A DNA stretch of 64,000 bases from contig NZ_SMCO01000004.1 of the NCBI RefSeq assembly GCF_004346685.1, positions 62,001 to 126,000 on the forward strand, written 5' to 3'. Shown here piece by piece: positions 2-49,544 of the stretch. The DNA is from Sulfurirhabdus autotrophica (GTDB lineage Bacteria; Pseudomonadota; Gammaproteobacteria; Burkholderiales; SMCO01). Made by a program: the position numbers and the translations under genes. The notes under the pieces are model-generated. The model was not told the DNA's origin. It ran no database searches and worked only from the letters and a program-made list of their open reading frames with translations. Numbering within the stretch: the stretch's first letter is position 1; the number at the start of each line of letters is the position of its first letter.

Positions 2-922
2 TTAAGTGGGATGGCAGGTGGCGTTGGTGTGGTGATTAATCATGCGGCTGCAGCAGGTAAGTTCGAGTTCTGGCCAAAGCTGGAAACCAAGGACATGCTT
101 GCCTTCATTGGCGCATGGGTAACCATGATGTTTGGTTCTATTCCTCAGCAGGACGTTTTTCAGCGTGTAATGTCCGCAAAAACTTCCCGTATTGCGGTAA
201 GTGGCGCGGTGCTGGGTGGGGGGCTATATTTTTTATTCGCGTTTATCCCCTTATTTCTCGCCTATTCAGCTTCGCTGATAGATCCCAAAATGGTTGCCGG
301 ACTAATCGAAAAAGACCCTCAGCACATATTGCCGACACTGATTATGGGACACACGCCGATATTTGCTCAGGTCATATTCTTTGGTGCCCTGCTATCAGCG
401 ATCATGAGTACCGCAAGCGGGACATTACTTGCTCCGTCCGTAACGTTTACAGAAAATATATTGAAAGGTATTGTCGGGCCTCAAACGGACAAAAGGTTCC
501 TGTTGACCATGCGTATCGTTGTGGTCTGTTTCGCCACCATTGTGACGCTTTTCGCACTTAATTCTTCGTCCAGCATTTATGAAATGGTGGGAAATGCTTA
601 TAAAGTGACTTTGGTAGTGGCATTCATCCCACTGGTAATGGGTCTGTATTGGAAGCGAGCCAATACTCAGGGTGCATTGTTTGCTGTTATTGCGGGGTTT
701 TCCACCTGGATTCTGCTTGAGATGTTTGCAGCAGATGGACTGTGGCCTCCACAGTTGCTTGGATTGTTAGCAAGTTTCTTGGGGATGTTGGCAGGATCAT
801 TACTGCCGCACTATGTTGGTAAACCAACCCCGCTGAAATTAACCCACAGTCAGTTGCATCATCATGCGGCAGCACAGACTCAGCATGTGGCAGAAATTCC
901 ATCTCAACGCCACAAAGACTAA
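2..922 (+). CDS. Sodium:solute symporter family protein, C-terminal part (5' end outside window)
   Basis: The frame is open to the window edge, so the N-terminal half of this membrane transporter is missing; about 307 residues are visible. The segment around GSIPQQDVFQRVMSAK matches the conserved helix-loop of sodium:solute symporters (SSS family, relatives of PutP and PanF), and is followed by at least six hydrophobic helices. The family couples import of small solutes such as amino acids, sugars or carboxylates to Na+ entry across the inner membrane; the substrate cannot be read from this part. The tail is polar and His-rich (HHHAAA). It is separated by about 500 bp from the next gene and is probably not part of the polysaccharide locus. 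Confidence 0.85.
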   Translation, partial: LSGMAGGVGVVINHAAAAGKFEFWPKLETKDMLAFIGAWVTMMFGSIPQQDVFQRVMSAKTSRIAVSGAVLGGGLYFLFAFIPLFLAYSASLIDPKMVAGLIEKDPQHILPTLIMGHTPIFAQVIFFGALLSAIMSTASGTLLAPSVTFTENILKGIVGPQTDKRFLLTMRIVVVCFATIVTLFALNSSSSIYEMVGNAYKVTLVVAFIPLVMGLYWKRANTQGALFAVIAGFSTWILLEMFAADGLWPPQLLGLLASFLGMLAGSLLPHYVGKPTPLKLTHSQLHHHAAAQTQHVAEIPSQRHKD

Positions 923-3699: not shown

Positions 3700-5418
3700 T
3701 TATCGTAAATACCCTTCCCGTTCCAGCTTCAGTAAAATCTGCTGCACTGCCTCTTCAACGCTGATATCAGTAGTATCGATCAATAGTTCCGGATTTTCAG
3801 GAATTTCATAAGGATCGCTGATTCCGGTAAATTCTTTAACAATGCCAGCACGAGCTTTGGCATAAAGCCCTTTGCGATCACGGCTTTCGCAAACTTCCAG
3901 TGGAGTGGAAACATGGATCTCAAAAAAACCACCATATGGCTCGATCATGGCCCGAACATCGCGGCGAGTGGCTTGGTAGGGTGCGATGGGTGCACAGATG
4001 GCAATGCCGTGATTTTTTGTAATTTCCGAAGCAACATAACCGATTCTGCGAACATTAATGTCACGGTGCTCACGGGAAAACCCAAGTTCGCTGGAAAGAT
4101 TCTTTCGGACCACGTCTCCATCCAGTAAAGTAATTTGGCGTCCACCCATTTCCAGCAATTTGGTGGTTAATATTTTGGCGATGGTTGATTTTCCAGCGCC
4201 TGAGAGTCCGGTAAAGAAAATCGTAAATCCTTGTTTGCTTCTGTCCGGATAGGTATTGCGCAATTCACGCAACACCTCCGGGTAAGAAAACCAGTCTGGT
4301 ATTTTAAGCCCTTCTACCAGCCTTCGCTTTAATTCGATCCCTGTTAAGGTAGCGGTGCGCATACCCTTAGGTACTTCTTCCTCAGGCAAATGTTGAGCGC
4401 GTTCTTCCACATAAACCATGCGCGGGAAGGGAATCAACTCTACACCGACTATATTGCGTTGTGCTTCGTTTGCCTGTTTGCCATCCGTCTGAAATAGATC
4501 CATGCCACGGCGAGTACCCCCAAGGTTGGTATGCTCACCCCCTACGATAAGGTGGGTACAACCGTAATTCCTTTGAACAATAGCCTTCCACAAAATTTCA
4601 CGCATGCCTGAACAGCGAGGGTGGAGAGGTAACAATGCGAGATCGGTAGTTGCGGAGGGAAAGCGGGGCATAATGGCCTGATAGCAGCGCATTAATGTAA
4701 AGTATTCGGGGTGATCAGGAAGTGCGCTACCAATAACGGGGTGTATCAACAGGTTTGCTTCATAGGCCATAGCCGACCGTAGCGTGAATTCATATTGCGC
4801 GCGGTGCAAGGGTTGATGCGACTGGTAGGCAATTATGCGTCTCCAGCCTCGGCGCGCAAAGGATTTTCGCAATTCTTCCGGACTCTGATGAAGTGACGGA
4901 TAGTCATGACGTAAAGGTAAAGACAATCCTTCCAGTTTTCCTGAAATATAGTGTGTGCCTACTTTTGAATTAAGATACGCTACCCCAGGATTTCTAGGAT
5001 CATCAGTGGCGAACAGTGCCTGTGATTCGAATACTTTATCCGGTTGCCACAGTTCTTCTAAGGAGAGTACCGCCAGCATGAAACCTTCGGCATCACGCAG
5101 CGCAATCTGGTCGCCGACAGAAAGTGTTGCGGCCATGTCAGCAGAAATGTCGAGTGTGATGGGCATGGGCCAGAAAGTACGATCTGCAAGATGCATGTCG
5201 TTCAACACCTGGGAATAGTCAGCCTGGTTCATGAAACCAGTGAGCGGTGAGTAGCCGCCGTTGAGCAGCAATTCAAGATCTGATTGCTGTCTTCTGTTGA
5301 GGTCAAGGGATTTGAAGTTGATGGCTTCATGGCGCAAGGTTTCCGCGCGTGCCTGGTCAACCAGTAAATTAACCAGTTTTTCGCCATAAGGCGTAATCAA
5401 TTTGTCCATTGCTTCCAT
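3700..5418 (-). CDS. Bifunctional sulfate adenylyltransferase/adenylylsulfate kinase (PAPS synthetase-like)
   Basis: A 572-residue fusion: an ATP-sulfurylase fold (about 1-390) followed by an APS kinase (about 395-572). The family makes PAPS, the sulfate donor for sulfotransferases, from sulfate and ATP in the cytoplasm. The kinase half looks intact, with the P-loop GLSGAGKST at 404-412 and DGD at 433-435. The sulfurylase half is odd: the catalytic QxRNPxHxxH motif reads QSHQPLHRAQ (199-208) and the usual GRDHAG region reads GGEHTN (293-298), so adenylyltransferase activity is uncertain. It starts 2 nt after the stop of the DHH phosphoesterase gene. A second possible ATG is three codons in. 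The two sulfotransferases in this window are the obvious users of its product (inference). Confidence 0.85.
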   Translation of the reverse strand: MEAMDKLITPYGEKLVNLLVDQARAETLRHEAINFKSLDLNRRQQSDLELLLNGGYSPLTGFMNQADYSQVLNDMHLADRTFWPMPITLDISADMAATLSVGDQIALRDAEGFMLAVLSLEELWQPDKVFESQALFATDDPRNPGVAYLNSKVGTHYISGKLEGLSLPLRHDYPSLHQSPEELRKSFARRGWRRIIAYQSHQPLHRAQYEFTLRSAMAYEANLLIHPVIGSALPDHPEYFTLMRCYQAIMPRFPSATTDLALLPLHPRCSGMREILWKAIVQRNYGCTHLIVGGEHTNLGGTRRGMDLFQTDGKQANEAQRNIVGVELIPFPRMVYVEERAQHLPEEEVPKGMRTATLTGIELKRRLVEGLKIPDWFSYPEVLRELRNTYPDRSKQGFTIFFTGLSGAGKSTIAKILTTKLLEMGGRQITLLDGDVVRKNLSSELGFSREHRDINVRRIGYVASEITKNHGIAICAPIAPYQATRRDVRAMIEPYGGFFEIHVSTPLEVCESRDRKGLYAKARAGIVKEFTGISDPYEIPENPELLIDTTDISVEEAVQQILLKLEREGYLR

Positions 5419-5420
5419 TT

Positions 5421-6386
5421 CTATGCCTTGAGGCTAAAAGTTTGATTAAATAATTCCGCGAAATGCGCAAGCTGATTTTCGGGAAGGTGGTTAATGCCTG
5501 CAGCACCCTTTCGTCCGCCGCCAGTAGCAAATTGACTGCACAATACATCTGCACCCGCTTTGGTTGCCATAGGTGAGCGCACACTGACCAGATACCCCCC
5601 GGCAGTAAGCCTGGTTAATACGGCATGGGCTATTAACGGGGCGGCTGTTGCCAGAGAGTTTCCAAACACCCCGGAAATTCGTCTGCTCCACGATGCATCG
5701 GGCAGCATGTAAATTTCACCCGCATCTGTTGAAATTTCTGGACGGATGCTATTGGCTAATGCCATATCTTCTGCATAGCCGTTCTGCAGGGTATTGTAAG
5801 CAGGTTCATCGTGTATGAAAGTAAATGGGTCGATATGGCGATGCAGTATTTGGTACAGTTCAGCAGGATGAAAGTATAAATCCTGTATGGATTCCCCGTA
5901 AGCATTATAATTAATGTATTCACCTAGTTGGCGCAACGCGTCCAGCTGCAAAGCACTTAACTTCAGGGCTTCGGATGCCTGTAATGCACTTTCATGCAGA
6001 TTGTCTCCAAATGCAGCAACGACAGCCCAAATTAAATATTGTCCTTTGAGTTCACGGTTAACCAGCAAGCTGGTGCAGACATTTGGGCTGGTGTCGATAC
6101 AGGCACTCAGATTAGGGTGATCAGGGATTTCACCCGGCATATGGTGGTCGAAATAACGCACCTTTGCACCCCGTTCCAGTTGGGCCAATAGCGCATCCCG
6201 GTTTTTGCTTAACGCGATGTCAAGTACTGTGATTTCGTCACCGGTGTTAGCGTTCACTTGCGATAATAAGGCTATATCGCGTTTAATACCGGTGACCAGA
6301 GTGCTTTGAACTGGTTGAGCAAGGCGTAGCTGGTGCAAAGCGCAAATGCCGTCTGCATCGCCATTAAAAACATCATAAAATGCCAC
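5421..6386 (-). CDS. DHH-family phosphoesterase
   Basis: A 321-residue soluble protein with the DHH superfamily signatures: NGDADG at 8-13, the metal-binding DHH at 80-82, and a C-terminal DHHA1-type glycine motif GGGRKGAAG near residue 289 (NrnA-type enzymes usually have GGGH). Family members are Mn-dependent phosphoesterases, including nanoRNase/pAp phosphatases. It is directly upstream of, and 2 nt from, the Sat-CysC gene. Sulfotransferases release 3',5'-ADP (PAP), an inhibitor that must be hydrolysed, so a PAP-phosphatase role beside a PAPS synthetase is attractive; that is inference from context. An exopolyphosphatase-like or oligonucleotide substrate remains possible. Confidence 0.8.
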   Translation of the reverse strand: MAFYDVFNGDADGICALHQLRLAQPVQSTLVTGIKRDIALLSQVNANTGDEITVLDIALSKNRDALLAQLERGAKVRYFDHHMPGEIPDHPNLSACIDTSPNVCTSLLVNRELKGQYLIWAVVAAFGDNLHESALQASEALKLSALQLDALRQLGEYINYNAYGESIQDLYFHPAELYQILHRHIDPFTFIHDEPAYNTLQNGYAEDMALANSIRPEISTDAGEIYMLPDASWSRRISGVFGNSLATAAPLIAHAVLTRLTAGGYLVSVRSPMATKAGADVLCSQFATGGGRKGAAGINHLPENQLAHFAELFNQTFSLKA

Positions 6387-7744: not shown

Positions 7745-10210
7745 TTAAGTAAGACTTGTTTTGCTACGAGTAGATTGTGAAATACCAACAAGCAACGCTA
7801 AAACAAGCATCATGCCCAATCTTGGGGCATCAAATAAACTATCCACAAATCCGATAGTGAGCAAGCCACTAATGCTAGCCAGCCATGCAGTCGCGTGTGG
7901 GGAACCTGCATACAAACTGCGTAATAAATGCCACACAGCTACGAGAGTTAAGGTGCAAAAAATTATCAGGCCGATTATGCCTTGTTCAAATATCAGGTGA
8001 ACCCACATATTTTTTATATGCCAGGCAAGATGGTTCCCTGATTTAAAGAACCAATAATCTCCCCCTTGAGCGAAATCACCGTTAGAGATGAGATTATCAC
8101 CATTACTATCAGTTAGGTGGATATTATCAATATCTACGACCCCTTTATCTTGTGGATTATAAAGTGAAAGTTGAACGGGACGTCTAGCCCACCACGCCCC
8201 TTGCCCAACTTGGCCACTGGAAAAAACAATATTTTGATGCTGCCACTCTTTACTTTTGGTGACAGGAACATTTAGCCATTGGCAAAGATGGGAATTAAAT
8301 AATTTTTTTTCACAAATGGAAATATCCAGTCGTTTAGTCTGGTCGCTTGCGCGTACATCCAGAGAAAGGGTGTAGGGTGAGTTTGGCATAATTTTGATAC
8401 TTTGTGCCATATACAACGTACCGCCTGAGTTTAAACTGAGGTAACGATTATCTTGTTCCGTCTTGTAGCGATAATTGCCCATAGACGAGTCAAAATTAGC
8501 GTAGAAGTAACGTTCGGGGAACGAGCCTAACCCAGCACCAAAAAGCTGCTCGATCCATGACTTTTGCAGTAAGTTTAATGATTTGGACCAATGCGTAAAT
8601 CGGGTATGCGCATCTTCCCCAGTTTGGGCAAAACGTTGCTGCAAAAAAGTGGCAGTTCCAATCCCCAAGATGACCACTATTAATCCGCTGACAAGCAATG
8701 CGCTCGCAGTATAGTGTAACGTGCGTGAAGTTCCTCTCGCACGCAAGTTGCGGTACATGCCAAAAGCGAGTATGACGAATACTACGGCAAGCGCGACAAT
8801 TCCCCCTCGCGCTACAGTCGTGACCAAGGCGTAAATGGCAATAAGAAACACGCCAATCGCAATTGCTTTAATCCAAATTCTTTTTTCCTGCCACAGTAAG
8901 AGCCAAGTGAAAGACAATGCAAAAATCAGATACGCTTCAATGTGCCCCCCTCCAATATGCATGCTGGAGAAAGTTGCAGTGACACGATAATCGAGAGCAC
9001 TTGTCCCGCTGAACAGCCAATATTCATGTAAAGCAGCTACTGATACGCCAGCCAGGCCTATCATCATGCCAATGCTGAAAAATCGTTGGGCTTGTGATAA
9101 GTCTTCGCTAGAGCGAAGCATGCCATAGAGAACTATTCCCCAAACAAAACCTTTGGCAACCCGCAGGCTATTGTAGTGACTAAAATAGTTGGAGAATGCA
9201 TTCGCGTCTAGGGGTTGTAATGGAAGTAAGCCGTTGGTAAAACTTATCAGTACTGAAATACAGAGAGTTAGAAATAACAGTCTCATGCGTGGTGAGAAAC
9301 TCAGTGCTGGCTCGGGAGTAGTCCGGCAAAGCAAAAGGGCCAGGGTGCTTAATATCAATAAATCAAATTCATCAAAAAAGAAACGTCCTGTCCAGGGCGC
9401 CAAGTCAAGCAGCGGTAACGTAGCAGGGATAACAAGCAACCAGGCTTGCGGATAACGCCAAAGTATAGAGAGGTAAAGTGCTAAACCGACACCCAAGGCG
9501 ATAGGCCAACGAGGGAAGCCGAACAATACTGCGGACACAACCAATAATATGATGAATGCCATCAAGCACTTGAAATATATGGATAAAGCAGACTGATTTA
9601 CGGAAGTGTTGTCTCTGTTGTGTGTTGTTGCCCTACTTTTACTCAAAGGCATTGTCTTTTCATTGACTGCATTATTATCAGCCGAGGCAAGAGCGGTTGC
9701 TTTTGGTTCAATATTGCCTGCATAAGTTTCTTTGTTACTTGAGCGGGTAGTAGCTGGGATGCTTTGGGTGCGAAGTAGTGTGTCTTTCCGCTCAGATAAA
9801 AACGAACGCTCTCCCAGCCAAAGCCCGGTGGCCAAGCCAGGTGCCACCGCCAGAATTTCTTGCACGGTCACCATATTGAAAACGTCAAGTGAAAATCCGA
9901 AGTAAAGAAAAGTGCCAGTTACCAACAATCCAACCCAGATGCGAGGAATATTGCCCAAGCCAGCAATGCCGAACATAAGGCCAATGGGCACCCATAGCAT
10001 GGAGGATTTAATAAATCGATAAAATTGCTCAGCCAGTTCAGGTTTTATAAGGCTTGGTGATGTGAGCACAGAACCTGGATCGAATGGAACCAGAGCTGAA
10101 ATAAATCCAACCAGTATCAGTATTATCCAGAGCGGATGGGAAAATCGACTATTCTGCTGCTTGATGCCATTTCTAGATTGCATCCCCATTTGTTTTAGAT
10201 TCTTAGCCAT
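7745..10210 (-). CDS. Large O-antigen-ligase-like membrane protein with VanZ-like N-terminus and periplasmic insertion
   Basis: An 821-residue polytopic protein. Residues about 25-135 are a short VanZ-like hydrophobic unit. A polar linker (about 136-200) leads into a ligase/polymerase-type membrane domain with the Wzy_C pattern: TTVARGGIVALAVV, then FGAGLGSFPERYFY, and FEQGIIGLIIF near the C-terminus. Such proteins join or polymerise lipid-linked glycans on the periplasmic face. Inside the large periplasmic loop, between the GAGLGSFPE segment and the FEQGIIG helix, about 140 extra residues (roughly 585-725) look like a beta-sandwich carbohydrate-binding module, ending in NLISNGDFAQGGDYWFF. 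Start is the ATG at 10210. Its substrate is unknown; the context suggests the EPS of this locus. Confidence 0.7.
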   Translation of the reverse strand: MAKNLKQMGMQSRNGIKQQNSRFSHPLWIILILVGFISALVPFDPGSVLTSPSLIKPELAEQFYRFIKSSMLWVPIGLMFGIAGLGNIPRIWVGLLVTGTFLYFGFSLDVFNMVTVQEILAVAPGLATGLWLGERSFLSERKDTLLRTQSIPATTRSSNKETYAGNIEPKATALASADNNAVNEKTMPLSKSRATTHNRDNTSVNQSALSIYFKCLMAFIILLVVSAVLFGFPRWPIALGVGLALYLSILWRYPQAWLLVIPATLPLLDLAPWTGRFFFDEFDLLILSTLALLLCRTTPEPALSFSPRMRLLFLTLCISVLISFTNGLLPLQPLDANAFSNYFSHYNSLRVAKGFVWGIVLYGMLRSSEDLSQAQRFFSIGMMIGLAGVSVAALHEYWLFSGTSALDYRVTATFSSMHIGGGHIEAYLIFALSFTWLLLWQEKRIWIKAIAIGVFLIAIYALVTTVARGGIVALAVVFVILAFGMYRNLRARGTSRTLHYTASALLVSGLIVVILGIGTATFLQQRFAQTGEDAHTRFTHWSKSLNLLQKSWIEQLFGAGLGSFPERYFYANFDSSMGNYRYKTEQDNRYLSLNSGGTLYMAQSIKIMPNSPYTLSLDVRASDQTKRLDISICEKKLFNSHLCQWLNVPVTKSKEWQHQNIVFSSGQVGQGAWWARRPVQLSLYNPQDKGVVDIDNIHLTDSNGDNLISNGDFAQGGDYWFFKSGNHLAWHIKNMWVHLIFEQGIIGLIIFCTLTLVAVWHLLRSLYAGSPHATAWLASISGLLTIGFVDSLFDAPRLGMMLVLALLVGISQSTRSKTSLT

Positions 10211-11203: not shown

Positions 11204-12490
11204 CTAACCAGACTTACTGCTATTTTGATCAATTCCTGTTTCATTTTTGTCGAAAATACCCTTTGTGACAATCTCCCCTAACACGATAGCAATCATAATT
11301 AGATGATAAGGTAACTCCCAGTATGCAATACCAAGGGTGAGCCCACCGACCATGTAAGCCATGAGCGAAGCTCGTATCATGGCTGCATAGTCTGCTGCCC
11401 ATGTGAGTCCTTTACGTGCGGCGGTCACTCCAAGTCGTGTGAGGCTAGCGAGAGTGCCGAAAAGTAATAGACTCCAAATAGCCAGGCCGACCAGTCCATG
11501 CTCGGTAGCCATCTCAACATAGGCGCTATGCCAGTCCAGTGGCCCGCCCGTTGACAGGGTCAACGCCGGCCAGGCATCAAAGCCACCTCCTGTCACTGGG
11601 TGATGCAGTACAAATTCTCGGCCAATTCGCCAGACGGCCAGGCGACTTTGAGCTGAAGCATCCTGTTCCACTGCCGAGAGGGTTTCCATGCGTTCAAACC
11701 AGTTTCCGGGCAATTGCACAAAGAACCCGGCAAGTACTATCACCAGGAAGGGTACGGCTAATAATTTCTTTTTACTGTGCCATAACAACATCAGTGTTAC
11801 GACAAACAATGCTAACATCCCTCCACGAGACCATGAAGAGATAACTGATCCGTAGCATAGTAAAATACCCCCCATAATAACCATGCGAAGCAGTTTATCC
11901 TTGCTTTCGCGTAGCCATAAAAATAGTAGCGGGATAACCATCGATACTACGACAGCAAACTCGTTGTTGTCAGCATACGGGCTTCCTGGGGGGCCATAAA
12001 CGCGATCATGAAAACCATTTATCACCGCCCAATAGCCACCTTTTACTGCAACTATCAAGATTGCTACAACAATGGTAATCATCAGATATCGAAGCTTTTC
12101 CCTGCCGTCAATTAGCAAAAGTGTCAACAAGAGCGGAGGCAAAATTTTGAGAACATCTATGTATTTTTCAAGGGCACCGGAGGGGAAAATGGCAAAGTAA
12201 CTACTTACCCCGAACCATAACCATAATGCGATTAAGAAAACCAAACGCCAGTCGAATGGCAAGGTATAGGATGGCCTTGTCCGAACATAATGCGTAACAG
12301 TACTGAGACTTACAACGCCGAATAAAATCAGGAACACCGGTATGTGTTTCGCGAATCCCAGTGCATAGCCCTGCGGATGCATATAACTGAGTATAGCCAA
12401 TCCAAGTACGCCGAGCCATGGCCGGTACATGGCCAGCATGGCAAAACTCAGCAACATGGTGAAAATGGCAAAATCGCGCATTTCAGTCAT
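11204..12490 (-). CDS. O-antigen ligase-like protein of the exosortase A-associated type (PEP_O_lig_1-like)
   Basis: A 428-residue polytopic protein that resembles the gene at 51466-52782 along its length: both start MRD-F/I, share YMHP/YMNP near residue 35-40, a conserved ADNNEFAVVVSM / GGDNEIGLALIM segment, SSWSRGGMLAL / GSQSRGALLGA, WFERMETL / WFDRMNTI, VTGGGFDAW / LVGGGFETF and EHGLVG / EHGFVG. This is the pattern of the putative O-glycosylation ligase found with exosortase A. It would transfer lipid-linked glycan in the periplasm. The start overlaps the stop of the upstream VanZ gene by 4 nt (ATGA); an ATG three codons in is an alternative. Likely the last gene of a minus-strand operon from 16283. 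Confidence 0.8.
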   Translation of the reverse strand: MTEMRDFAIFTMLLSFAMLAMYRPWLGVLGLAILSYMHPQGYALGFAKHIPVFLILFGVVSLSTVTHYVRTRPSYTLPFDWRLVFLIALWLWFGVSSYFAIFPSGALEKYIDVLKILPPLLLTLLLIDGREKLRYLMITIVVAILIVAVKGGYWAVINGFHDRVYGPPGSPYADNNEFAVVVSMVIPLLFLWLRESKDKLLRMVIMGGILLCYGSVISSWSRGGMLALFVVTLMLLWHSKKKLLAVPFLVIVLAGFFVQLPGNWFERMETLSAVEQDASAQSRLAVWRIGREFVLHHPVTGGGFDAWPALTLSTGGPLDWHSAYVEMATEHGLVGLAIWSLLLFGTLASLTRLGVTAARKGLTWAADYAAMIRASLMAYMVGGLTLGIAYWELPYHLIMIAIVLGEIVTKGIFDKNETGIDQNSSKSG

Positions 12491-13956
12491 TCTTGAAAAC
12501 GAGTAGGTTGAGCGTTGCGTTGATGCTTGCGATGGGTTGGGTATCCATGACCGGATCTGCTCAGAATTATTTTAAATAGAGAGTAGCCCAGTATGCCGCC
12601 AAGCGTTTCTAGCATCCAATCAGTAATATCCGCAAATTTACCCGGCAGGAATGCTTGGCCGAGTTCGATCCCTAATGCAAATAGACTGATGCTAAGAATA
12701 GCGAACCAGCCTGCAAATTGTCTCCAGGAATAATGGTGAATTTGAGTCACTCCCAACCCTAATAGCGCTCCCAGTGGCAAAAAAAACCCCATTTTATGCA
12801 AAACTTCCGTGATAGCACGATACTCCGTACCGTAATAATATGTTAAAAAAGGGACTCTCAGCATGCCGGGCAAATTTTTGGCGGCGAACTCCCGGCTGAA
12901 GTGGAAATCAAAAGGGTACCAGAAAACGGTAATTATAATAGCCGTCCAGAATAATGTTGCCGCTAGCCATAATATCAGGTGGAGGGCGCCATTACTTTTG
13001 CGTGAATGAGCGGTGGCCGCGCCCAGTTTTTCATTTTTGAAGAGGTTTACAAGCTGTAAACCAATTACAGCGCCTAAGGCGGCAGTCAATATTTGGGTAA
13101 CATTGCTGACACGTGTGTAAACAAACAATTGTAAAAACTCTAAAAGAGCAGAAGCGCTAATGACATAAAGCCATATGGAAAATGCCGGTCGTGTGCTGGC
13201 TAGTTGCCATAAAAAAGCGACAGGGGCCCAGATCGCCACATCACTGATCACACCATATAACGCTTGTTGTGGATTTTCGAATATATAGCTAAAAGGAATC
13301 AGGATTACCCGTCCCTCTTTCCATTTATGATAAATTTCTATGGGACTCAGAGTCAGATCCAGTGGTAACAGATTGTAACCAAACAGCCCAAACAGGTAGA
13401 GGAAGAGCAAGCGTTCTGCTAATCCGGTGTTTCCCTTAGCCAAAGACCAGCGAGTCAGCCACGACAATAGCTTTTCACCGTATATCCACCAAAGGAAAAT
13501 GCCGATGCAAGCGCCTATACTTTCGGCAATAATGTCATTCAGGGATACTGTTCGAGGTGGGAAAAACAGTTGGGTGAATTCAATGCCAATACTTAAGGCA
13601 AATGCACAGAACAGAATGGTGAGGGTAGACAAAACTCTCAGGCCAAAATTTGAGCGATGCCACAAAATGCCAAGCCAGATAAAAGCCAGTGGGATGAATA
13701 ACAAAATGTTGGCTACCCAGTCGGCACGGGAGCCGATGCCAAGATTGAGGTAGGGAATAGCCATGAAGGCCTGCCACGCGTTATCCCAACTTCGATTGTG
13801 AAAATCAAGCGGCACCAGACTGCCATATATAACAAAAGTCAGATACGCTAAACCCGTATAGAAAAGAGAGTTGCGTACGCTTTGGATTGACTGTACATCG
13901 GACTTTCTACCCGAAATGAAACGGTCTTTTGTGTTTCCTGGCATGATTCGCGACAT
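12487..13956 (-). CDS. VanZ family protein with two VanZ-like halves
   Basis: A 489-residue polytopic protein. The N-terminal half has VIYGSLVPLDF, DWVANILLFIPLAFIW and GIEFTQLFFPPRTVSLNDI; the C-terminal half repeats the pattern with FWYPFDF, LHKMGFFLPLGALLG and GIELGQAFLPGKFADITDW. That indicates two tandem VanZ domains, about 40-180 and 345-475. The function of the family is unknown; it recurs in EPS loci. It lies 15 nt after the beta-helix gene and overlaps the ligase-like gene by 4 nt, so the three are probably translated from one transcript. Confidence 0.8.
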   Translation of the reverse strand: MSRIMPGNTKDRFISGRKSDVQSIQSVRNSLFYTGLAYLTFVIYGSLVPLDFHNRSWDNAWQAFMAIPYLNLGIGSRADWVANILLFIPLAFIWLGILWHRSNFGLRVLSTLTILFCAFALSIGIEFTQLFFPPRTVSLNDIIAESIGACIGIFLWWIYGEKLLSWLTRWSLAKGNTGLAERLLFLYLFGLFGYNLLPLDLTLSPIEIYHKWKEGRVILIPFSYIFENPQQALYGVISDVAIWAPVAFLWQLASTRPAFSIWLYVISASALLEFLQLFVYTRVSNVTQILTAALGAVIGLQLVNLFKNEKLGAATAHSRKSNGALHLILWLAATLFWTAIIITVFWYPFDFHFSREFAAKNLPGMLRVPFLTYYYGTEYRAITEVLHKMGFFLPLGALLGLGVTQIHHYSWRQFAGWFAILSISLFALGIELGQAFLPGKFADITDWMLETLGGILGYSLFKIILSRSGHGYPTHRKHQRNAQPTRFQE

Positions 13957-29040: not shown

Positions 29041-29882
29041 TTAGACTGGCAATACGTTTTGACGATCCTTCAGCCACTTCAAATCGCGCGTTGGAGCAAG
29101 GTATTTTCGCTGCGGCAAAAGCAGCAGGTATGCCAATAACTGTTGGGGTTATCCCTTTTCGTCGAAGGGCAGAAGAGTTGATTTCCCTGACCCGAGATCG
29201 CGCTACCCACCTGATTGACGCGCAGAATGCAGGGACAATTGAAGTGGCCCTGCATGGATATTGTCATGAAACAGTACGGGGTGAACAGCAGCCGCCCAGT
29301 GAATTCATGGGGTTGGATGTTGCTACTCAAATTGAACGGATAGGCGAAGGCCGTGATCTGCTGGAGGCGACTTTCGGCTGCCTTGTCAAAGGTTTTGTAC
29401 CGCCATGGAATACGTTTGATCAGGCCACTGTTCAAGCACTAGCCAAGCTTGAATTCCGTTATATCTCTGCAGGAATGGACTTGCCCGTTGGTTGTGATTC
29501 CGGTTTGGCTTATTTACCCCGTACCTGCCAAATCGCGTCACTTGCCAAAACGATTAACGAGTTAGAAAAATTTGCGGAGTTTGATCCGGTGGTCATAGCG
29601 GTCATGCATCATTATGACTTTGTGGAAAGCGGCATTGCTAATGCACCAACTGACCTGGAACGTTTCGGGCATATTCTTCAAACGTTGACGCAGGATAAGC
29701 GTATACAAGTTACGACCATTTCAGCACTTTGTAATGACCCAGTGGCATCTTACGCGAACAGGCAGAAGCAAACCGCCTGGGCCAGGTTGCCCGGTAAAAT
29801 TCAGTGCCACCTCCCTGAAGATGCTTTGTTGAGTCAGGGCTGGCCTCTTATGTTTTTAAAATCTATTTTTCGTCTCATATGA
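29037..29882 (+). CDS. DUF2334-like deacetylase-fold protein
   Basis: A 281-residue protein with the layout of the DUF2334 branch of the polysaccharide deacetylase superfamily: IRFDDPSA at 6-13 in place of TFDDG, EVALHGYCHE as the histidine metal site, KGFVPPWNTFD and IAVMHHYDF. The superfamily hydrolyses N-acetyl or other acyl groups from glycans. There is no obvious signal peptide. Its neighbours are a GT2 gene (4-nt overlap) and a sulfotransferase (4-nt overlap), so deacetylation followed by sulfation is a reasonable but unproven sequence of events. Confidence 0.75.
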   Translation: MIRLAIRFDDPSATSNRALEQGIFAAAKAAGMPITVGVIPFRRRAEELISLTRDRATHLIDAQNAGTIEVALHGYCHETVRGEQQPPSEFMGLDVATQIERIGEGRDLLEATFGCLVKGFVPPWNTFDQATVQALAKLEFRYISAGMDLPVGCDSGLAYLPRTCQIASLAKTINELEKFAEFDPVVIAVMHHYDFVESGIANAPTDLERFGHILQTLTQDKRIQVTTISALCNDPVASYANRQKQTAWARLPGKIQCHLPEDALLSQGWPLMFLKSIFRLI

Positions 29883-30859
29883 ACATGCAACGCGCCCCCA
29901 AAGGACCTGTATTTATTGTTGGCGCCCCCCGCTCCGGCACTACCCTTCTGCAGTATATGTTGCGCTCACACCCGGCACTATCCCTGCCCACGGGAGAGTC
30001 ACACTTTTTTATCCCGCTGTACCGGCATGCTTCACAATTCGGTGATTTGTCCCTACCTGAAAATGTAGAACAGGTTTTAAATGTGATGGAAGCTCAAAGT
30101 GCGGAGTTTCTACATACTGACATGCATGGCCTCAAGTTTAATGTGGAAAACCTGGCACGAGATTTCGTAGCAGAAGGTCGCCAGAGTGTGCGTGATATTA
30201 TTTCTGGGCTATTTGAGAAAAATGCAGCGGGTGAAGGTAAACCGCGATGGTGCGACAAGACACCGTATTACGTTATGCATATTCCCAAGTTGCTGGAGTG
30301 GTGGCCGGATGCGCAGATTATTCATATTGTGCGCGATGGCCGTGATGTGGCCCTTTCCATGTTTGCCCGGCGGCATGACTTCCGTGTTTACAACACTTAT
30401 CTTGCAGCAAAGCAGTGGGAACAGTATGTCGATAACGGCCATATGTCCGGCCAGCAAGTACCCGAGGGGCAATATATGGAATTGCGCTATGAGGATATGA
30501 TCAGTGATCAGAAAGCAGCGCTCCAGAAAATTTGTGGTTTTCTCGGAGAGGCTTATTCTGATGATTTGCTGGAATACAAAAAATCAGGGACTGCCGGTAA
30601 AACGCCCTTATTGCAAAAGCCCATTCAGAAAGATAATCAGGATAAGTGGAAATGTGAAATGACACCCTGGCAGATTCGCGTGTTCGAATCTGCCGCAGCG
30701 GCCACTCTGAAAAATTTCGGCTATACCCTGACGACATCAGCCCACCGCTTGCCATTAGTCTTGCGGGTATATTATCGCTGGCAAAATGCATTAAGCACGG
30801 CTTGGTATCGTAAGTTTGGCCCAAAGAAAAAACCATGGTCTCCACACTCACCGTCCTGA
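29879..30859 (+). CDS. PAPS-dependent sulfotransferase
   Basis: A 326-residue protein with both PAPS-binding signatures: the 5'-phosphosulfate loop VGAPRSGTT at 14-22 and the 3'-phosphate motif IVRDGRDVALS at 150-160. KPRWCDKTPYYV, between them, is also typical of the bacterial sulfotransferase family. It transfers sulfate from PAPS to a hydroxyl or amine; the acceptor is probably a sugar in this locus, though other acceptors are possible. It overlaps the genes before (4 nt) and after (25 nt). PAPS could come from the Sat-CysC protein encoded at 3700-5418. Confidence 0.85.
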   Translation: MNMQRAPKGPVFIVGAPRSGTTLLQYMLRSHPALSLPTGESHFFIPLYRHASQFGDLSLPENVEQVLNVMEAQSAEFLHTDMHGLKFNVENLARDFVAEGRQSVRDIISGLFEKNAAGEGKPRWCDKTPYYVMHIPKLLEWWPDAQIIHIVRDGRDVALSMFARRHDFRVYNTYLAAKQWEQYVDNGHMSGQQVPEGQYMELRYEDMISDQKAALQKICGFLGEAYSDDLLEYKKSGTAGKTPLLQKPIQKDNQDKWKCEMTPWQIRVFESAAAATLKNFGYTLTTSAHRLPLVLRVYYRWQNALSTAWYRKFGPKKKPWSPHSPS

Positions 30860-33800
30860 TTTGTACCCACAATCGAGCGCTGCTGCTGAGACGTGTGCTG
30901 CAATCGATCAACCTGGCAATGCGCCCGGAGAAATGGCAAATACGCATTCTGGTGGGTGTAAACAATTGTAGCGATGAGACAGTCGAAAGCCTTCAACAAT
31001 ATCAGCAAGATGCCGAGCAGCAGGGCTGGTTACCGCTGACCTGGTTTGAGGAACCTGTTCCCGGTAAATCCCACGCGCTCAACCATGCAATTCGCCTGTT
31101 GAGCGATGATGCAGTCGCGTTGGTGGATGACGATCATCGCGTAGATCACGAATTTCTGGTGGAAATATGCAAGGCTCTGGAAACTTATCCAGAAGCCACG
31201 ATGTTTTGCGGACGCATTTTGCCAGATTGGGATGGCACCGAACCCGCCTGGGTCTATGACACAGGCCCCTACCGGATCTATCCACTCCCGGTGCCGCGTT
31301 ATGATCAGGGAATGGTGCATAGGTTGGTCACCGTAGAACATGGGCCGTTACCGGGTGGTGGAAACTTGTTTTTGCGATCAGGGGTATTTGAACGTGTAGG
31401 TGGTTTTTCTACAGAACTAGGTCCGCGGGGACACGACCTCGGGGGTGGTGAGGATAGCGAGTTTGTACTCACTGCGTTGCAGAAAGGCGAACAACTTCAA
31501 TATGTACCAGAAGTGTTGCAGCATCACTACGTAGATGCCGAGCGACTTAAGTTCAGTTATTTGATACGCAAGAGTTACCAGCGGTCTCGTTCAGTAGCCC
31601 GTGTCCATCATCAGGAAAAACAAGTGCCACGCTATATCTGGCGTAAACTGGCAGAGTATGTAGCACATGCCGTATTCTCATTTTCCTGGCCCAAAGCCCG
31701 CTTTTATCTTATGCGTACTGCCGCAACGCTCGGCGAATTGCAGGGAATGCGTGAAAAAGTGCAGGAGCTTTCCCCCCTTCGCAACAAGCATTTAACGGAC
31801 CGAATTGGGGCTGGATTTTGGGCACTACTCACAATAGCGGGAGTGATTAGCGCCGGTATTTCAGTGCGTTTCTTTCCGACGATATTATTTCAGCAAGTGA
31901 TTGAAGGCGCACTGGCTACATTGAGTAATGCACTAGCCATAACGCTCCTGATCAGCGCAAAAGCACTCCGCGATTTTTCTCAAACCGGCCCGCAAATTCA
32001 AGCCGAAATCCGTCATCATTATCGATGGTATACCTTGGCCGCCTTTGCAAGGCTGGTGGGCTGGACACTCTTGCTGCTTATCCTTATGGGAGCAGTAGGA
32101 ACAGTTATATATGCGGCGATGGCAGCAGTTTCAGGCCTCAATTATACGTTTACAGGTGCATTTGTAGCCGCGTTTATGGGTGTTGCGTTGATTACAAGCT
32201 GGCAGTTTTGTCGCCAGCTTTTTTACATTCCTGCCAGTCTGGTTTCATCCATGCATTACCGTATGAGCCGGCTTTATCCTTTATGGGGAATGCTTAATGC
32301 TTCACGGTTACACCTGTTTGGCGGATCCATCGCTTTCTTGGTTTTTTTACTGTTTGGATTTGCCAGTTTACGGCTTGCCCAGATGGGAGCGCTCGCACCA
32401 CTAACCGCACTATGGGGAGGCTTTGCCGCTTTGGTTGGACTGGCTGGGTGGGCAAATGCTGCAACTACACCCACACCAGTCAAATCGAAGCGCAGTGATA
32501 CGCGACCCAATATCCTGATGTTGGGTTCGGATACGCTTCGGGCTGATCGCCTGGGGGTTGCTGGATATCGTCGCCAATTGACACCCAAGTTAGATCAAAT
32601 GGCCAAAAGTGCGACGCAATTCACGCAATGCTACGTTCCTTGCGCACGTACCGCACCCAGTTTAATATCCCTGTTTTCGGGCACCTGGCCCCACCGGCAT
32701 GGTATCAGAGACAATTTTGTAGCAGACGCTGAAACCCGTTTGTCAGTGCCTTGTCTTCCACAAATTCTAGCAGATGCAGGCTATGCCACCGTTGCCGTCA
32801 GTGATTGGTGTGGTGCTGATCTGGGTAAGTTTTCGTTAGGATTTCAGAAAGTTGATGCGCCAGAAGACCAATGGAACATCAAATATCTGATACGTCAGGG
32901 TCCAAAGGATTTAAGACTGTTTTTGTCACTTTTCACCCACAATCGTTTTGGTAAATATTTTTTACCGGAACAGTATTATTTAGCGGGTGTGCCACTAACC
33001 ACACAAGCAGGTCGTGATGCTCGTGCCCGGTTGTCTAGTCTGGCCGGGACAGATCAGCCGTTCTTGCTCAATGTGTTTTTGTCAGCCACACATCCCCCCT
33101 TCGGCTCTGAATTCCCTTACTATGCACGCTTCTCAGACCCTAAATATTCCGGCGAATCAAAATTCGTCATGGCGCGGCTAACGGACCCGCAGGAAATTAT
33201 TCGTCGCCAGGGCGATGGCAGAAAAGAGTTTGACCTCGACCAAATAATTGATCTTTATGATGGTTGTGTTCAAAGTTTTGATGATGAAGCGGGGCGAATT
33301 CTTGACCACCTGGAAGCGTGCGGGCTCGCTGAAAATACGATTGTGGTGGTATACAGCGACCATGGTATGGAATTCTTTGAGCATGAAACCTGGGGTCAAG
33401 GCAATAGCGCGGTAGGTGATTTTTCGGCCCGTATACCACTGATTATTCGTGACCCGCGAACCCAGGGTAGCGGCGTACAGCAACAAACTGTGCGTAGTGT
33501 GGATATCGCACCAACGCTGCTGGAGCTGGCTGGCCTTAAAAGTCCCATTGTTATGGATGGCATTTCTCTGGCAAGTCTGGTTAGAGGAGAAAATCTGGAT
33601 CTGGATTTGGCAGCCTTCAATGAAACCGGCATCTGGCTAACTGATTTGCCGGGCATGCCGGAAGATCATTTGCGTTATCCCAATTTATTGGAGCTACTGG
33701 AAGTACCAGATAAAAGCAGCGGCACCTTGGCAATCAAACCCGAATACCATGACATAGTGTTTGAAGCTAAAGACAGGATGGTTCGACTAGGACCCTGGAA

Positions 33801-34008
33801 ATTAGTCTATCAGCCACTTGAGTCCAGGGTTTTGTTGCGCTTATTTGATTTGGAAAATGATCCGGGATGCTTGCGAGACGTGTCAAAACAGTTTCCAGAA
33901 ATATGTGAGTCTCTCATGCTTCGGTTGTCAGAATGGATGAAAGGGGAAAATGAGGGGCAAGTATCTCGGAGCCAGAGGCAGAAGGTTAGCTTATTAAGCG
34001 CTAGATAA
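30835..34008 (+). CDS. GT2 glycosyltransferase-membrane-sulfatase-like fusion protein
   Basis: A 1057-residue fusion. Residues 1-310 are a GT2 domain (VLICTHNRALLLRRVLQS; VALVDDDHR near 95-101; GGGEDSEFVLT). About 325-545 contains six or so membrane helices. From 558 it is an alkaline-phosphatase/sulfatase superfamily domain: PNILMLGSDTLRADR with metal-binding Asp566, and VVVYSDHGMEFFEH. In classical sulfatases the nucleophile is a Cys or Ser turned into formylglycine (C/S-x-P-x-R). Here the aligned segment is RTAPSLISLFSG, putting Thr606 at that place, as in phosphotransferases such as LtaS and EptA. So it may transfer a phospho-group or hydrolyse a different ester rather than act as a formylglycine sulfatase. 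The start overlaps the sulfotransferase by 25 nt. Confidence 0.8.
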   Translation: MVSTLTVLICTHNRALLLRRVLQSINLAMRPEKWQIRILVGVNNCSDETVESLQQYQQDAEQQGWLPLTWFEEPVPGKSHALNHAIRLLSDDAVALVDDDHRVDHEFLVEICKALETYPEATMFCGRILPDWDGTEPAWVYDTGPYRIYPLPVPRYDQGMVHRLVTVEHGPLPGGGNLFLRSGVFERVGGFSTELGPRGHDLGGGEDSEFVLTALQKGEQLQYVPEVLQHHYVDAERLKFSYLIRKSYQRSRSVARVHHQEKQVPRYIWRKLAEYVAHAVFSFSWPKARFYLMRTAATLGELQGMREKVQELSPLRNKHLTDRIGAGFWALLTIAGVISAGISVRFFPTILFQQVIEGALATLSNALAITLLISAKALRDFSQTGPQIQAEIRHHYRWYTLAAFARLVGWTLLLLILMGAVGTVIYAAMAAVSGLNYTFTGAFVAAFMGVALITSWQFCRQLFYIPASLVSSMHYRMSRLYPLWGMLNASRLHLFGGSIAFLVFLLFGFASLRLAQMGALAPLTALWGGFAALVGLAGWANAATTPTPVKSKRSDTRPNILMLGSDTLRADRLGVAGYRRQLTPKLDQMAKSATQFTQCYVPCARTAPSLISLFSGTWPHRHGIRDNFVADAETRLSVPCLPQILADAGYATVAVSDWCGADLGKFSLGFQKVDAPEDQWNIKYLIRQGPKDLRLFLSLFTHNRFGKYFLPEQYYLAGVPLTTQAGRDARARLSSLAGTDQPFLLNVFLSATHPPFGSEFPYYARFSDPKYSGESKFVMARLTDPQEIIRRQGDGRKEFDLDQIIDLYDGCVQSFDDEAGRILDHLEACGLAENTIVVVYSDHGMEFFEHETWGQGNSAVGDFSARIPLIIRDPRTQGSGVQQQTVRSVDIAPTLLELAGLKSPIVMDGISLASLVRGENLDLDLAAFNETGIWLTDLPGMPEDHLRYPNLLELLEVPDKSSGTLAIKPEYHDIVFEAKDRMVRLGPWKLVYQPLESRVLLRLFDLENDPGCLRDVSKQFPEICESLMLRLSEWMKGENEGQVSRSQRQKVSLLSAR

Positions 34009-34130: not shown

Positions 34131-34979
34131 CTATTTAATCTGTTTCCAGCGTGATATTTGACCAAACAAGCTTATCAAGCCTACGAGCAGGAGGATACTA
34201 CTACTGGGCTCGAGTATAGGGGTGATTTGAACTACTTTACTATAGGTTCCTCCGTTAAATGTTATGAAGCCGCCTCCAGCAGCAACGGGGCCAACTTTGA
34301 TCCCTCCGCCCCCCACTGTTGTTCCCCCTTTTGTTACCGTATATGTATCGTTAGCGATCTTCCCATCCGTCGTGATTTCCACGTCTAAACCGTCAACGGT
34401 CCACCACGAAAAGGGATTGTACCAGTGACTGCTCGAAATTTCCTTATATGTTATCTTGGAAGTTGGGTCTGTGAAGGTTCCTGAATCCCAAGATGGGTTG
34501 CCCACAGTGTCGGAGGTATAAGTTATTAGTGTTCCCCCAATTGATAAGCTGTCACTAACTTGAAAATCGGTGGATGAAATCCACTGGGAAATACCTTCCA
34601 TCGTCCATGATTGCCCGTCATAGCTCCCAGTTCCCACCCAACTCGTTGAATGGTTGGTCGAATCGTATGCTCCTGATGCGGACAAAAATAAGCTTAATCC
34701 ATTGTAATTTGATCCGGAAACCGTCCAAACGAAACCACTTTCATCGATGTTACCCACTGCAGTTAGTGACGGATACGATGGATCTACACCATACTTGTAT
34801 CCTAACACCCCAATTGCGGTGTCAAAGGATAAAAATGCTGGAAGCGTGTTTTCTAAGACAGGAGTTATCGGACCTGCTATTGAGATGCTAACGTGGGCCA
34901 CAAAAATGACAACACTAAGGGTTAATTGCATGGCCCAACGAAATAAAAAATCATTTAGAAGTGTAAATATTGAACTCAT
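34131..34979 (-). CDS. PEP-CTERM-like exported protein with LEP variant motif
   Basis: A 282-residue protein with an N-terminal signal/hydrophobic segment (about 15-36, ending SIAG), a Gly/Ser/Thr-rich secreted region and a C-terminal sorting tail LEPSSSILLLVGLISLFGQ followed by RWKQIK. The first Pro of the usual PEP motif is Leu, which exosortase clients tolerate at this position to some degree. The mature region is of no known family. It is unusually AT-rich and lies between the large fusion gene and a partial copy of its sulfatase domain. A sigma54-like box and upstream element precede it on the minus strand. Confidence 0.75.
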   Translation of the reverse strand: MSSIFTLLNDFLFRWAMQLTLSVVIFVAHVSISIAGPITPVLENTLPAFLSFDTAIGVLGYKYGVDPSYPSLTAVGNIDESGFVWTVSGSNYNGLSLFLSASGAYDSTNHSTSWVGTGSYDGQSWTMEGISQWISSTDFQVSDSLSIGGTLITYTSDTVGNPSWDSGTFTDPTSKITYKEISSSHWYNPFSWWTVDGLDVEITTDGKIANDTYTVTKGGTTVGGGGIKVGPVAAGGGFITFNGGTYSKVVQITPILEPSSSILLLVGLISLFGQISRWKQIK

Positions 34980-35228: not shown

Positions 35229-35663
35229 TCGCCAGGGCGATGGCAGAAAAGAGTTTGATCTCGACCAAATAATCGATCTTTATGACGGTTGTGTGCAAAG
35301 TTTTGATGATGAAGCGGGGCGAATTCTCGACCACCTGGAAGTGTGCGGGCTCGCTGAAAATACGATTGTGGTGGTATACAGTGATCATGGCATGGAATTC
35401 TTCGAACATGAAACCTGGGGGCAAGGTAATAGCGCTGTAGGTGATTTTTCGGCCCGTATACCACTGATTATTCGTGACCCGCGAACCCAGGGTAGCGGCG
35501 TACAGCAACAAACTGTGCGTAGTGTGGATATCGCACCAACGCTGCTGGAGCTGGCTGGCCTTAAAAGTCCCATTGTTATGGATGGCGTTTCTCTGGCAAG
35601 TCTGGTTAGAGGAGAAAATCTGGATCTGGATTTGGCAGCCTTCAATGAAACCGGCATCTAGCT
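35229..35663 (+). pseudogene. Partial copy of the sulfatase-like domain of the 30835-34008 gene
   Basis: 435 bp align without gaps to 33204-33638 at an offset of 2025 bp. The copy covers roughly residues 790-935 of the fusion protein and has neither the start nor the catalytic N-terminal part of the domain. It ends in an in-frame TAG at 35659 where the original has TGG. Within the alignment 14 of 15 internal differences fall in the first half, and 13 of 15 are synonymous, while the rest is almost identical. The copy is nonfunctional as it stands. Confidence 0.85.
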
Positions 35664-48617: not shown

Positions 48618-49544
48618 TCATTCGGCTGGGTATCCCATGGATTGCGCTGTAGGAGCAACAGAGTGCATTATTCGTTCGATTTTTTCTCGGTTGCGTCCGT
48701 CTTTCCATTTATCCAGCCGTATTTCGGAAAAAGCGTTATACGGAGTGGATAATACATGGGCGCAATGTTGTTCGATATCCTGCGTAAACGCCAGGCCACA
48801 TTGTTCGAAGGCTTGTCGAAACCCTGATACGGGGTTGCGTACCAGATCCTCGTAAAATACCTCGCTCCACAGATGGGAAGGAATCTGTTTTTTTGCCGCA
48901 AGAATTTCATTGTTAATGGCGCAGTATTGGAAAGCACAGACTTCTTCAATGGATTTGTTGAGATAGTTGCGCCAGCCATCGGAAAGAAAAAAACACCATT
49001 GGGTATAACGACCATTTTCTACGGTAACTTTTTCTTTTAATTCCCGAGACCAAGTTGCGAATTCTTCAGGCTTTCCCCAACCTTCAATGAGCGAATTAAT
49101 ATTGTCACCGGGACTGCGTTTGACAAAAATGAAATGGGCCTTGGGAAACAAAGCATGCAAAAACGGTATGCACAATCCATTTTGGTTGTTTTTGTCTATA
49201 AACCGTGTTTTCCCGGTGAAAGTGTAAAAGTAGCGGCTTACCTCGTCACGGTCTTTTGTGTTGGCATCTTGCGAGTTTAACCCATGGGTATCCCAGTTTT
49301 TATCCGCTAAGGGATGCAAGTCCACCCAGAAGTCATGGGTTTCTCTTTGCAACGTGCCCAGCTCTTTTGATTCAGATAAGGTTTTATAAACAAGTGTGGT
49401 ACCGGCACGGCTGCAGCCTATTACAAAAACGGGGTTAACTGATTGTTTTTGATGAACGTTCCACCAGGCATTACGCGTTGCACGAAGAATCTGCCTTCCA
49501 TGATATCGCAGTGTTTTATCAACTTTTAACCAGAATTCACTCAA
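48618..49544 (-). CDS. PAPS-dependent sulfotransferase
   Basis: A 308-residue cytoplasmic protein with the 5'-phosphosulfate loop VIGCSRAGTT at 41-50 and the 3'-phosphate motif FVKRSPGDNINS at 140-151. It has the same general layout as the sulfotransferase encoded at 29879-30859 but low visible identity, so the two probably act on different sites. It heads the minus-strand acylation and glycosyltransferase group and faces the divergent asparagine-synthase gene, separated by 81 nt. Confidence 0.8.
   Translation of the reverse strand: MSEFWLKVDKTLRYHGRQILRATRNAWWNVHQKQSVNPVFVIGCSRAGTTLVYKTLSESKELGTLQRETHDFWVDLHPLADKNWDTHGLNSQDANTKDRDEVSRYFYTFTGKTRFIDKNNQNGLCIPFLHALFPKAHFIFVKRSPGDNINSLIEGWGKPEEFATWSRELKEKVTVENGRYTQWCFFLSDGWRNYLNKSIEEVCAFQYCAINNEILAAKKQIPSHLWSEVFYEDLVRNPVSGFRQAFEQCGLAFTQDIEQHCAHVLSTPYNAFSEIRLDKWKDGRNREKIERIMHSVAPTAQSMGYPAE

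Follow-up and report, generated by a model that had tools for sequence, protein, structure and literature searches.

What does a sulfatase-like domain do when its nucleophile position holds a threonine and a glycosyltransferase precedes it in the same polypeptide? The question is raised by a gene in a 64,000-nucleotide stretch of the Sulfurirhabdus autotrophica genome (assembly GCF_004346685.1, contig NZ_SMCO01000004.1, positions 62,001 to 126,000; the whole stretch is called the window, and coordinates refer to it). In the encoded protein, a glycosyltransferase family 2 (GT2) domain is followed by a membrane region and a domain of the alkaline phosphatase superfamily (Table 1). Tentatively, and with a probability of about 0.4, we prefer to read the protein as a membrane-bound enzyme that takes part in exopolysaccharide assembly and has its two soluble domains in the cytoplasm; it would combine sugar transfer by the GT2 domain with Thr-type phosphotransfer onto a lipid-linked glycan.

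Architecture and recurrence of the fusion

The open reading frame (ORF) starts with ATG and contains no internal stops. Pfam search identified Glycos_transf_2 at residues 6–143 (4.2e-13) and Sulfatase (PF00884) at residues 558–900 (3.9e-43); the phosphodiesterase model PF01663 was a further match. The AlphaFold2 model, built from a 63-row alignment (predicted local distance difference test score 88.7, predicted template modelling score 0.78), consisted of a glycosyltransferase domain, six long helices between the domains, and an S1-sulfatase fold at residues 556–1046. Nearly identical membrane helices were obtained when residues 1–556 were modelled separately. The GT2 domain had a GT-A fold with acidic DXD-type and ED motifs, and a selection of 42 GT2 regions of this type showed no variation at D98-D99-D100, E206-D207, Q229, and H231.

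The main alignment of the family comprised 84 rows: 80 of 120 confirmed loci from a contig scan, three loci from a further search for relatives, and the window protein. Judged by their titles, the loci belonged mostly to Beta- and Gammaproteobacteria. A class-wide sample provided 20 members from genomes other than that of S. autotrophica, five of which repeat genes of the main set and are identical to them in the tree columns (L118=L070, L120=L005, L123=L046, L124=L043, L125=L071; L numbers denote loci). At a threshold of 1e-60, the membrane-sulfatase profile was found in 21 of the 369 genomes of the even class sample, S. autotrophica included, and in 1 of 299 genomes of the phylum draw, which was S. 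autotrophica itself. Polysaccharide clusters that host the family occur, for example, in Thiobacillus, Nitrotoga, Thauera, Aromatoleum, and Marichromatium. One match of the relatives search (G025) was an ordinary Cys-type sulfatase and was rejected. Relatives in named genomes reached 61% identity across almost the full length of the protein. A chance ORF or an assembly artefact was ruled out, since near-full-length relatives occur in named genomes and Thr606 is present in every row of both samples.

The GT2 and membrane-sulfatase parts were not always encoded together. In L071, L072, L075–L078, L080, and L083, the GT2 was a separate gene of the same locus, with a sulfotransferase gene and another GT2 gene in between, and in L057 the GT2 and membrane-sulfatase genes were adjacent. 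In L065–L068 and L070, a different N-terminal part preceded the same membrane-sulfatase part. It was a second GT2 type (GT2b), confirmed by Pfam in L065 (10845–14132) and L068 (8774–12073) only and recognised by alignment in L066, L067, and L070. In a quick tree of 99 rows (long branches flagged; truncated rows L069, L079, L082, L086, and L137 left out), the label "split" required six changes and the label "GT2b" four, two changes of each being forced by starred branches; GT2b fusions stood at two or more separate places. The label "split" means here not fused; L128, L129, L133, and L134 lacked a recognisable separate gene for this GT2 type. Since the tree needs at least two split and at least two GT2b changes on starred branches, the GT2 and the sulfatase-like part have been repeatedly joined or parted. 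Such recurring fused and split forms are the Rosetta-stone pattern of a putative working pair.

Nucleophile position and loss of the sulfatase signature

Thr606 aligned with the Cys that becomes formylglycine in S1 sulfatases of known structure. T606, D566, D842, H843, and H753 were invariant in 84/84 rows of the main alignment and 20/20 of the class-wide sample, and K665, Q688, E849, W853, Q855, and N857 were fixed to the same extent, which argues for an active enzyme. In the AlphaFold2 secondary structure, T606 opens a helix just past a strand, D566 closes a strand, and D842-H843 follow a strand; in the sulfatase-type fold, the nucleophile and the ligands lie at such helix and strand ends. 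Around these positions the residues of sulfatases were replaced in every row: D657 takes the place of the Lys in GK..WH (PS00149), the Arg that follows the nucleophile and is essential in sulfatases is L, I, or M, and T or S (T567 in the window protein) comes after D566, where sulfatases have a second acid.

The loss was confirmed with updated sulfatase signature patterns (PMC5066984). The formylglycine catalytic signature with Cys/Ser and Arg (updated PS00523) matched 0/84 and 0/20 proteins, and so did the second signature with the conserved Lys (updated PS00149); both recognised all three Escherichia coli sulfatase controls, AslA, YidJ, and YdeN. The Ca-binding 1 pattern with paired acidic ligands (0/84, 0/20) was a weak test, matching one control of three. 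The Ca-binding 2 pattern, Asp-[NHQ]-Gly, found in 0/84 and 3/20, was likewise one of the weaker tests (two controls of three); the fusion protein does contain Asp842-His843-Gly844. A classical formylglycine sulfatase was therefore ruled out by the catalytic signature. C603 was rejected as an alternative nucleophile, being present in 83/84 proteins of the main set but in only 10/20 of the class sample. With Thr606 fixed in every row and the formylglycine-sulfatase signature absent, the sequences are best read as pointing to phospho-group chemistry on Thr606, which would fit better than sulfate hydrolysis. A family search with PF00884 labels such proteins sulfatases, though the sulfatase signature is absent from their sequences.

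A preliminary description of the gene had proposed a GT2-membrane-sulfatase-like fusion of 1057 residues, and the intact ORF, Pfam, and AlphaFold2 all bear this out. Its placement of Thr606 at the formylglycine position was right, including the numbering, and the architecture, which it suggested looking for in other genomes, is present in dozens of named assemblies.

Predicted topology, proposed reaction, and alternatives

GT2 domains use nucleotide sugars and lie on the cytoplasmic side of the membrane. Because the GT2 domain is cytoplasmic and six helices follow it, the second soluble domain is predicted on the same side, and both soluble domains would thus be cytoplasmic, opposite to LtaS and EptA. 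Six helices were counted in 62/65 fusions of the first GT2 type (GT2a) and in 5/5 GT2b fusions. In the window protein, 18 Lys and Arg residues lie on the side of the GT2 and sulfatase-like domains, compared with 2 on the opposite side. Across the main set the sulfatase side was the more positive one in 81/83 rows (median 20 vs. 3), L086 being skipped for lack of a membrane part, and the bias recurred in 16/20 members of the class sample. Among ten non-fused members, seven had five helices, one had six, and two had four, and the charge bias was the same as in the fusions in eight. Of the split proteins, the four shortest (L057, L076, L077, L080) start right at helix 2; others carry a hydrophilic N-terminal extension, possibly a start-site artefact, and for some split members the N-terminal start is uncertain. 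Helix parity would accordingly shift with fusion while the sulfatase-like domain keeps the same predicted side. Cysteines in this domain numbered 4 to 12 per row, with an odd number in 38/84, and no clear paired loss was seen; a disulfide beside the nucleophile was rejected on this ground. Typical periplasmic domains are disulfide-bonded, and the cysteine pattern weakly fits a reducing compartment. The preliminary description had coupled the GT2 to a periplasmic modification. The coupling is supported by fused, split, and GT2-swapped forms in the same type of locus; the periplasmic side is not supported, since six helices after a cytoplasmic GT2 and the positive sulfatase side predict the cytoplasm.

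In 49/54 relatives with both flanks, a sulfotransferase gene lay in the downstream flank or no more than 3 kb upstream. Among loci with at least 3 kb upstream, an upstream one was found within 3 kb in 34/68 and ended at most 100 nt from the start in 13/68, and in the class sample 8/20 loci had a recognisable sulfotransferase. These counts are lower bounds, with only genes resembling the two sulfotransferases of the window counted. The polysaccharide of the window cluster is probably sulfated, because a gene for synthesis of 3'-phosphoadenosine-5'-phosphosulfate (PAPS) and two sulfotransferase genes lie in one cluster of exopolysaccharide type. PAPS-dependent sulfotransferases of this kind are cytoplasmic, and a cytoplasmic lipid-linked substrate is therefore indicated. 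PAPS genes together with sulfotransferases were described as the hallmark of a sulfated polysaccharide cluster in a Vibrio study (PMC11641403), and the authors of PMC8205485 stated that they knew of no other bacterial exopolysaccharide cluster in which sulfotransferase genes had been detected.

In the proposed reaction, the GT2 domain would extend a lipid-linked repeat unit by a sugar. The sulfatase-fold domain, rebuilt as a Thr-type phosphotransferase with a metal presumably held by D566, D842, and H843, would pick up a phospho-group on Thr606 as a phospho-intermediate. The donor would most likely be the head group of an inner-leaflet phospholipid and less likely a nucleotide-activated compound. 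The same lipid-linked glycan would then receive the phospho-group at a hydroxyl, on the sugar added by the GT2 domain, and the cytoplasmic sulfotransferase of the operon may sulfate this glycan before export. If the domain is cytoplasmic, phospho-decoration would precede flipping of the glycan; we know of no characterised enzyme of this fold that acts before flipping. The family would predict an unrecognised substituent on the polymers of its host clusters.

Several points weigh against this reading. Activity, donor, and product are all putative. Topology was derived from hydropathy, charge counts, and AlphaFold2 helices. Reading the side from the C-terminal end was correct for 9/12 E. coli membrane proteins; BcsG and RhtA came out wrong, YidK came close to a tie, and several of the proteins had their helices miscounted. 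The charge bias was absent in L076 and L080 of the main set, both with only four helices counted, and in 4/20 of the class sample (L129, L131, L134, L135), which are divergent members. The best profiles, and the best of the fold matches listed, are those of S1 sulfatases, not of LtaS or EptA. Two proteins of the genome matched the formylglycine-generating-enzyme family PF03781, a broad family, and formylglycine-type maturation may still take place in this cell. No inner-leaflet enzyme of this kind has been characterised to our knowledge. The characterised membrane-anchored relatives LtaS, EptA, and BcsG act outside the cytoplasm, and the catalytic domains of LtaS, EptA-type enzymes, YejM, and BcsG are all extracytoplasmic (PMC4192460, PMC10525099, PMC7576196, PMC11470070).

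This extracytoplasmic location is one argument for the alternative that survives best, which we consider unlikely: five spanning helices and a periplasmic Thr-type domain, which would modify the glycan with phosphoglycerol or phosphoethanolamine during or after its export, similar to BcsG beside BcsA. Parity flips if helix 314–346 does not span the membrane, the BcsA-BcsG complex likewise joins a GT2 enzyme to a phosphoethanolamine transferase, and the class-sample members without charge bias agree with this arrangement as well. It is opposed by the six helices of nearly all GT2a and all GT2b fusions, by the positive charges, which would then lie outside, by the same bias in most non-fused members, and weakly by the cysteines.

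Slightly less probable still is a hydrolase facing the cytoplasm, in which Thr606 would act on the lipid-linked glycan or its donor and cleave off a phosphodiester or phosphomonoester, for editing or recycling. Thr-type members of the superfamily do include hydrolases, such as YejM, whose Mg-dependent phosphatase activity fell by ~70% in T302A (PMC7576196), and the PF01663 match points in the same direction; repeated fusion with GT2 and a biosynthetic operon suit synthesis better. A domain without turnover, which would organise the GT2 and the sulfotransferase in a structural or regulatory way, appears improbable. The sulfatase catalytic signature is gone in all rows, and a similar role could be supposed for YejM, for which no activity was reported before 2020 (PMC7576196). 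The nucleophile, the ligands, and D657, K665, Q688, E849, W853, Q855, and N857 are nevertheless invariant in all 84 + 20 rows, which is unexpected in a pseudoenzyme. Very improbable is a sulfatase or sulfuryl-transfer enzyme in which Thr itself would act on sulfate from the neighbouring sulfotransferases. The S1 fold, the frequent sulfotransferase neighbours, PAPS synthesis in the cluster, and the two PF03781 proteins speak for it. Against it, formylglycine maturation enzymes act on Cys or Ser and Thr is not convertible to formylglycine, the Arg, Lys, and second acid are replaced in all rows, a sulfatase sharing the sulfotransferase compartment would undo sulfation, and just 8/20 class-sample loci have a recognisable sulfotransferase.

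A plasmid search matched 14 records, of which five were taken (one from Leptospira and four from haloarchaea); one of them, L145, had no annotation and was left out. Of nine sulfatase-like proteins in the remaining four records, three had Thr at the nucleophile position (the Leptospira protein, Hada_7998, and Hada_11210), five had Cys, and one had neither. A glycan cluster of the haloarchaeon Haladaptatus (L142) encodes three apparently soluble proteins that are annotated as sulfatase-like (4794–5975, 7998–9428, 11210–12526). The second and the third are the Thr-type ones and have no hydrophobic window >1.6; PF00884 was confirmed for the second only. These proteins hint at the existence of cytoplasmic Thr-type enzymes with this fold.

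In the S. autotrophica genome, PF00884 matched only the fusion gene and a truncated copy of its sulfatase-like part, and no match to NF028537 (phosphoethanolamine transferase) was found. The copy differs from the corresponding segment of the fusion gene at 16 of 435 nt; 13 differences are at third codon positions, and 14 lie in the first 208 nt. It looks like what remains of a tandem or imported copy that once functioned and was partly homogenised. The copy lies behind a PEP-CTERM-like gene, which had no Pfam or NCBIfam match. An ORF adjoining the PAPS synthesis gene (5421–6386) resembled a DHH phosphoesterase by eye and matched no Pfam family.

Table 1. Features of the fusion gene and its surroundings, in window coordinates
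Feature	Coordinates	Strand	Basis
Fusion protein, 1057 residues: GT2, six predicted membrane helices, Thr-type sulfatase-like domain	30835..34008	+	ORF, Pfam, AlphaFold2
GT2 domain, residues 1–257	30835..31605	+	Pfam; fold TarS/TarP/K4CP-like, Z ~23
Membrane region, residues 314–541	31774..32457	+	AlphaFold2 helices; hydropathy and charge counts
Membrane helices, residues 314–346, 350–384, 390–433, 439–464, 489–516, 520–541			
Sulfatase-like (alkaline phosphatase superfamily) domain, residues 556–1046	32500..33972	+	Pfam, fold comparison
D566 codon, predicted metal ligand	32530..32532	+	Alignments, 84/84 and 20/20
Thr606 codon (ACC), nucleophile position	32650..32652	+	Alignments
D842 and H843 codons, predicted metal ligands	33358..33363	+	Alignments
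Sulfotransferase (Sulfotransfer_3)	29879..30859	+	Pfam; 3' end overlaps fusion-gene start by 25 nt
ATP sulfurylase–adenosine 5'-phosphosulfate kinase fusion (PAPS synthesis)	3700..5418	-	Pfam
Second sulfotransferase of the cluster	48618..49544	-	Pfam
ORF with PEP-CTERM-like tail by eye	34131..34979	-	Between fusion gene and truncated copy
Truncated second copy of sulfatase-like part	35229..35663	+	96% identical to 33204–33638

Comparison with known systems

No description of a GT2-membrane-sulfatase fusion was found in the literature at the level of titles and abstract openings, and term searches of PMC9850573 and PMC1569441 found neither sulfatase nor sulfotransferase. The protein is a variant of a known fold and not a member of the LtaS or EptA groups. 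Among the 50 fold matches listed, the best was the S1 sulfatase 6hr5 (Z 36.4, root-mean-square deviation (rmsd) 2.6, 359 residues aligned), and choline sulfatase (Z 32.5) and the periplasmic domain of YejM (6vc7, Z 29.9) were listed as well. The whole PbgA chain (6xlp) aligned over residues 349–1046 only with an rmsd of 21.8. With S1 sulfatases (SulfAtlas S1, PF00884) the fusion protein shares the fold (Z 30 to 36 in the matches listed), the Pfam family, the invariant His of PFF..PH, and Asp-His-Gly. It differs from them in Thr for Cys/Ser, L/I/M for Arg, Asp for the PS00149 Lys, and Thr/Ser for the second acid, and its family is membrane-anchored and often fused to GT2.

A Thr nucleophile as in LtaS and phosphoethanolamine transferases, which the preliminary description had assumed, is consistent with the Thr position and the ligand set; nearest kinship with these enzymes is not supported. 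The NCBIfam models gave 28.2 bits for LtaS (cut-off 970) and 18.8 bits for phosphoethanolamine transferases (cut-off 500), so profiles give no support to close kinship, and the absence of LtaS and EptA among the fold matches listed proves nothing. The likeness to EptA/MCR-type phosphoethanolamine transferases and LtaS thus appears to lie in the Thr nucleophile position and one acidic ligand plus Asp-His, behind N-terminal membrane helices. The set D566, T606, and D842-H843 parallels E240, T280, D452, and H453 of EptA (PMC10525099), and the distance from the first acid to Thr is 40 residues in both; the stretch from Thr to Asp-His is 236 residues vs. 172 in EptA. Unlike in these enzymes, the first ligand is Asp instead of Glu, a GT2 domain is fused, and six (fused) or mostly five (non-fused) helices are found in the opposite predicted orientation.

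YejM/PbgA/LapC also carries a Thr-type domain behind membrane helices; in contrast to the fusion protein, it has five helices, a periplasmic domain, a role in outer-membrane control, and no GT2. The nearest working analogy is BcsG/BcsA, where an alkaline-phosphatase-superfamily domain coupled to a GT2 enzyme modifies an exopolysaccharide. BcsA occurs with three copies of BcsG in one complex (PMC11470070); these are, however, separate proteins, and BcsG uses a Ser nucleophile and acts on cellulose outside the cytoplasm. A broader proposal, which we regard as doubtful, is that the family represents a new kind of membrane transferase, in which a cytoplasmic sulfatase-fold Thr domain would give a phospho-group to the sugar placed by its own GT2 in glycan-sulfating clusters. 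Such an enzyme would mirror LtaS, EptA, and BcsG on the opposite face of the membrane and would have soluble relatives in archaeal glycan clusters.

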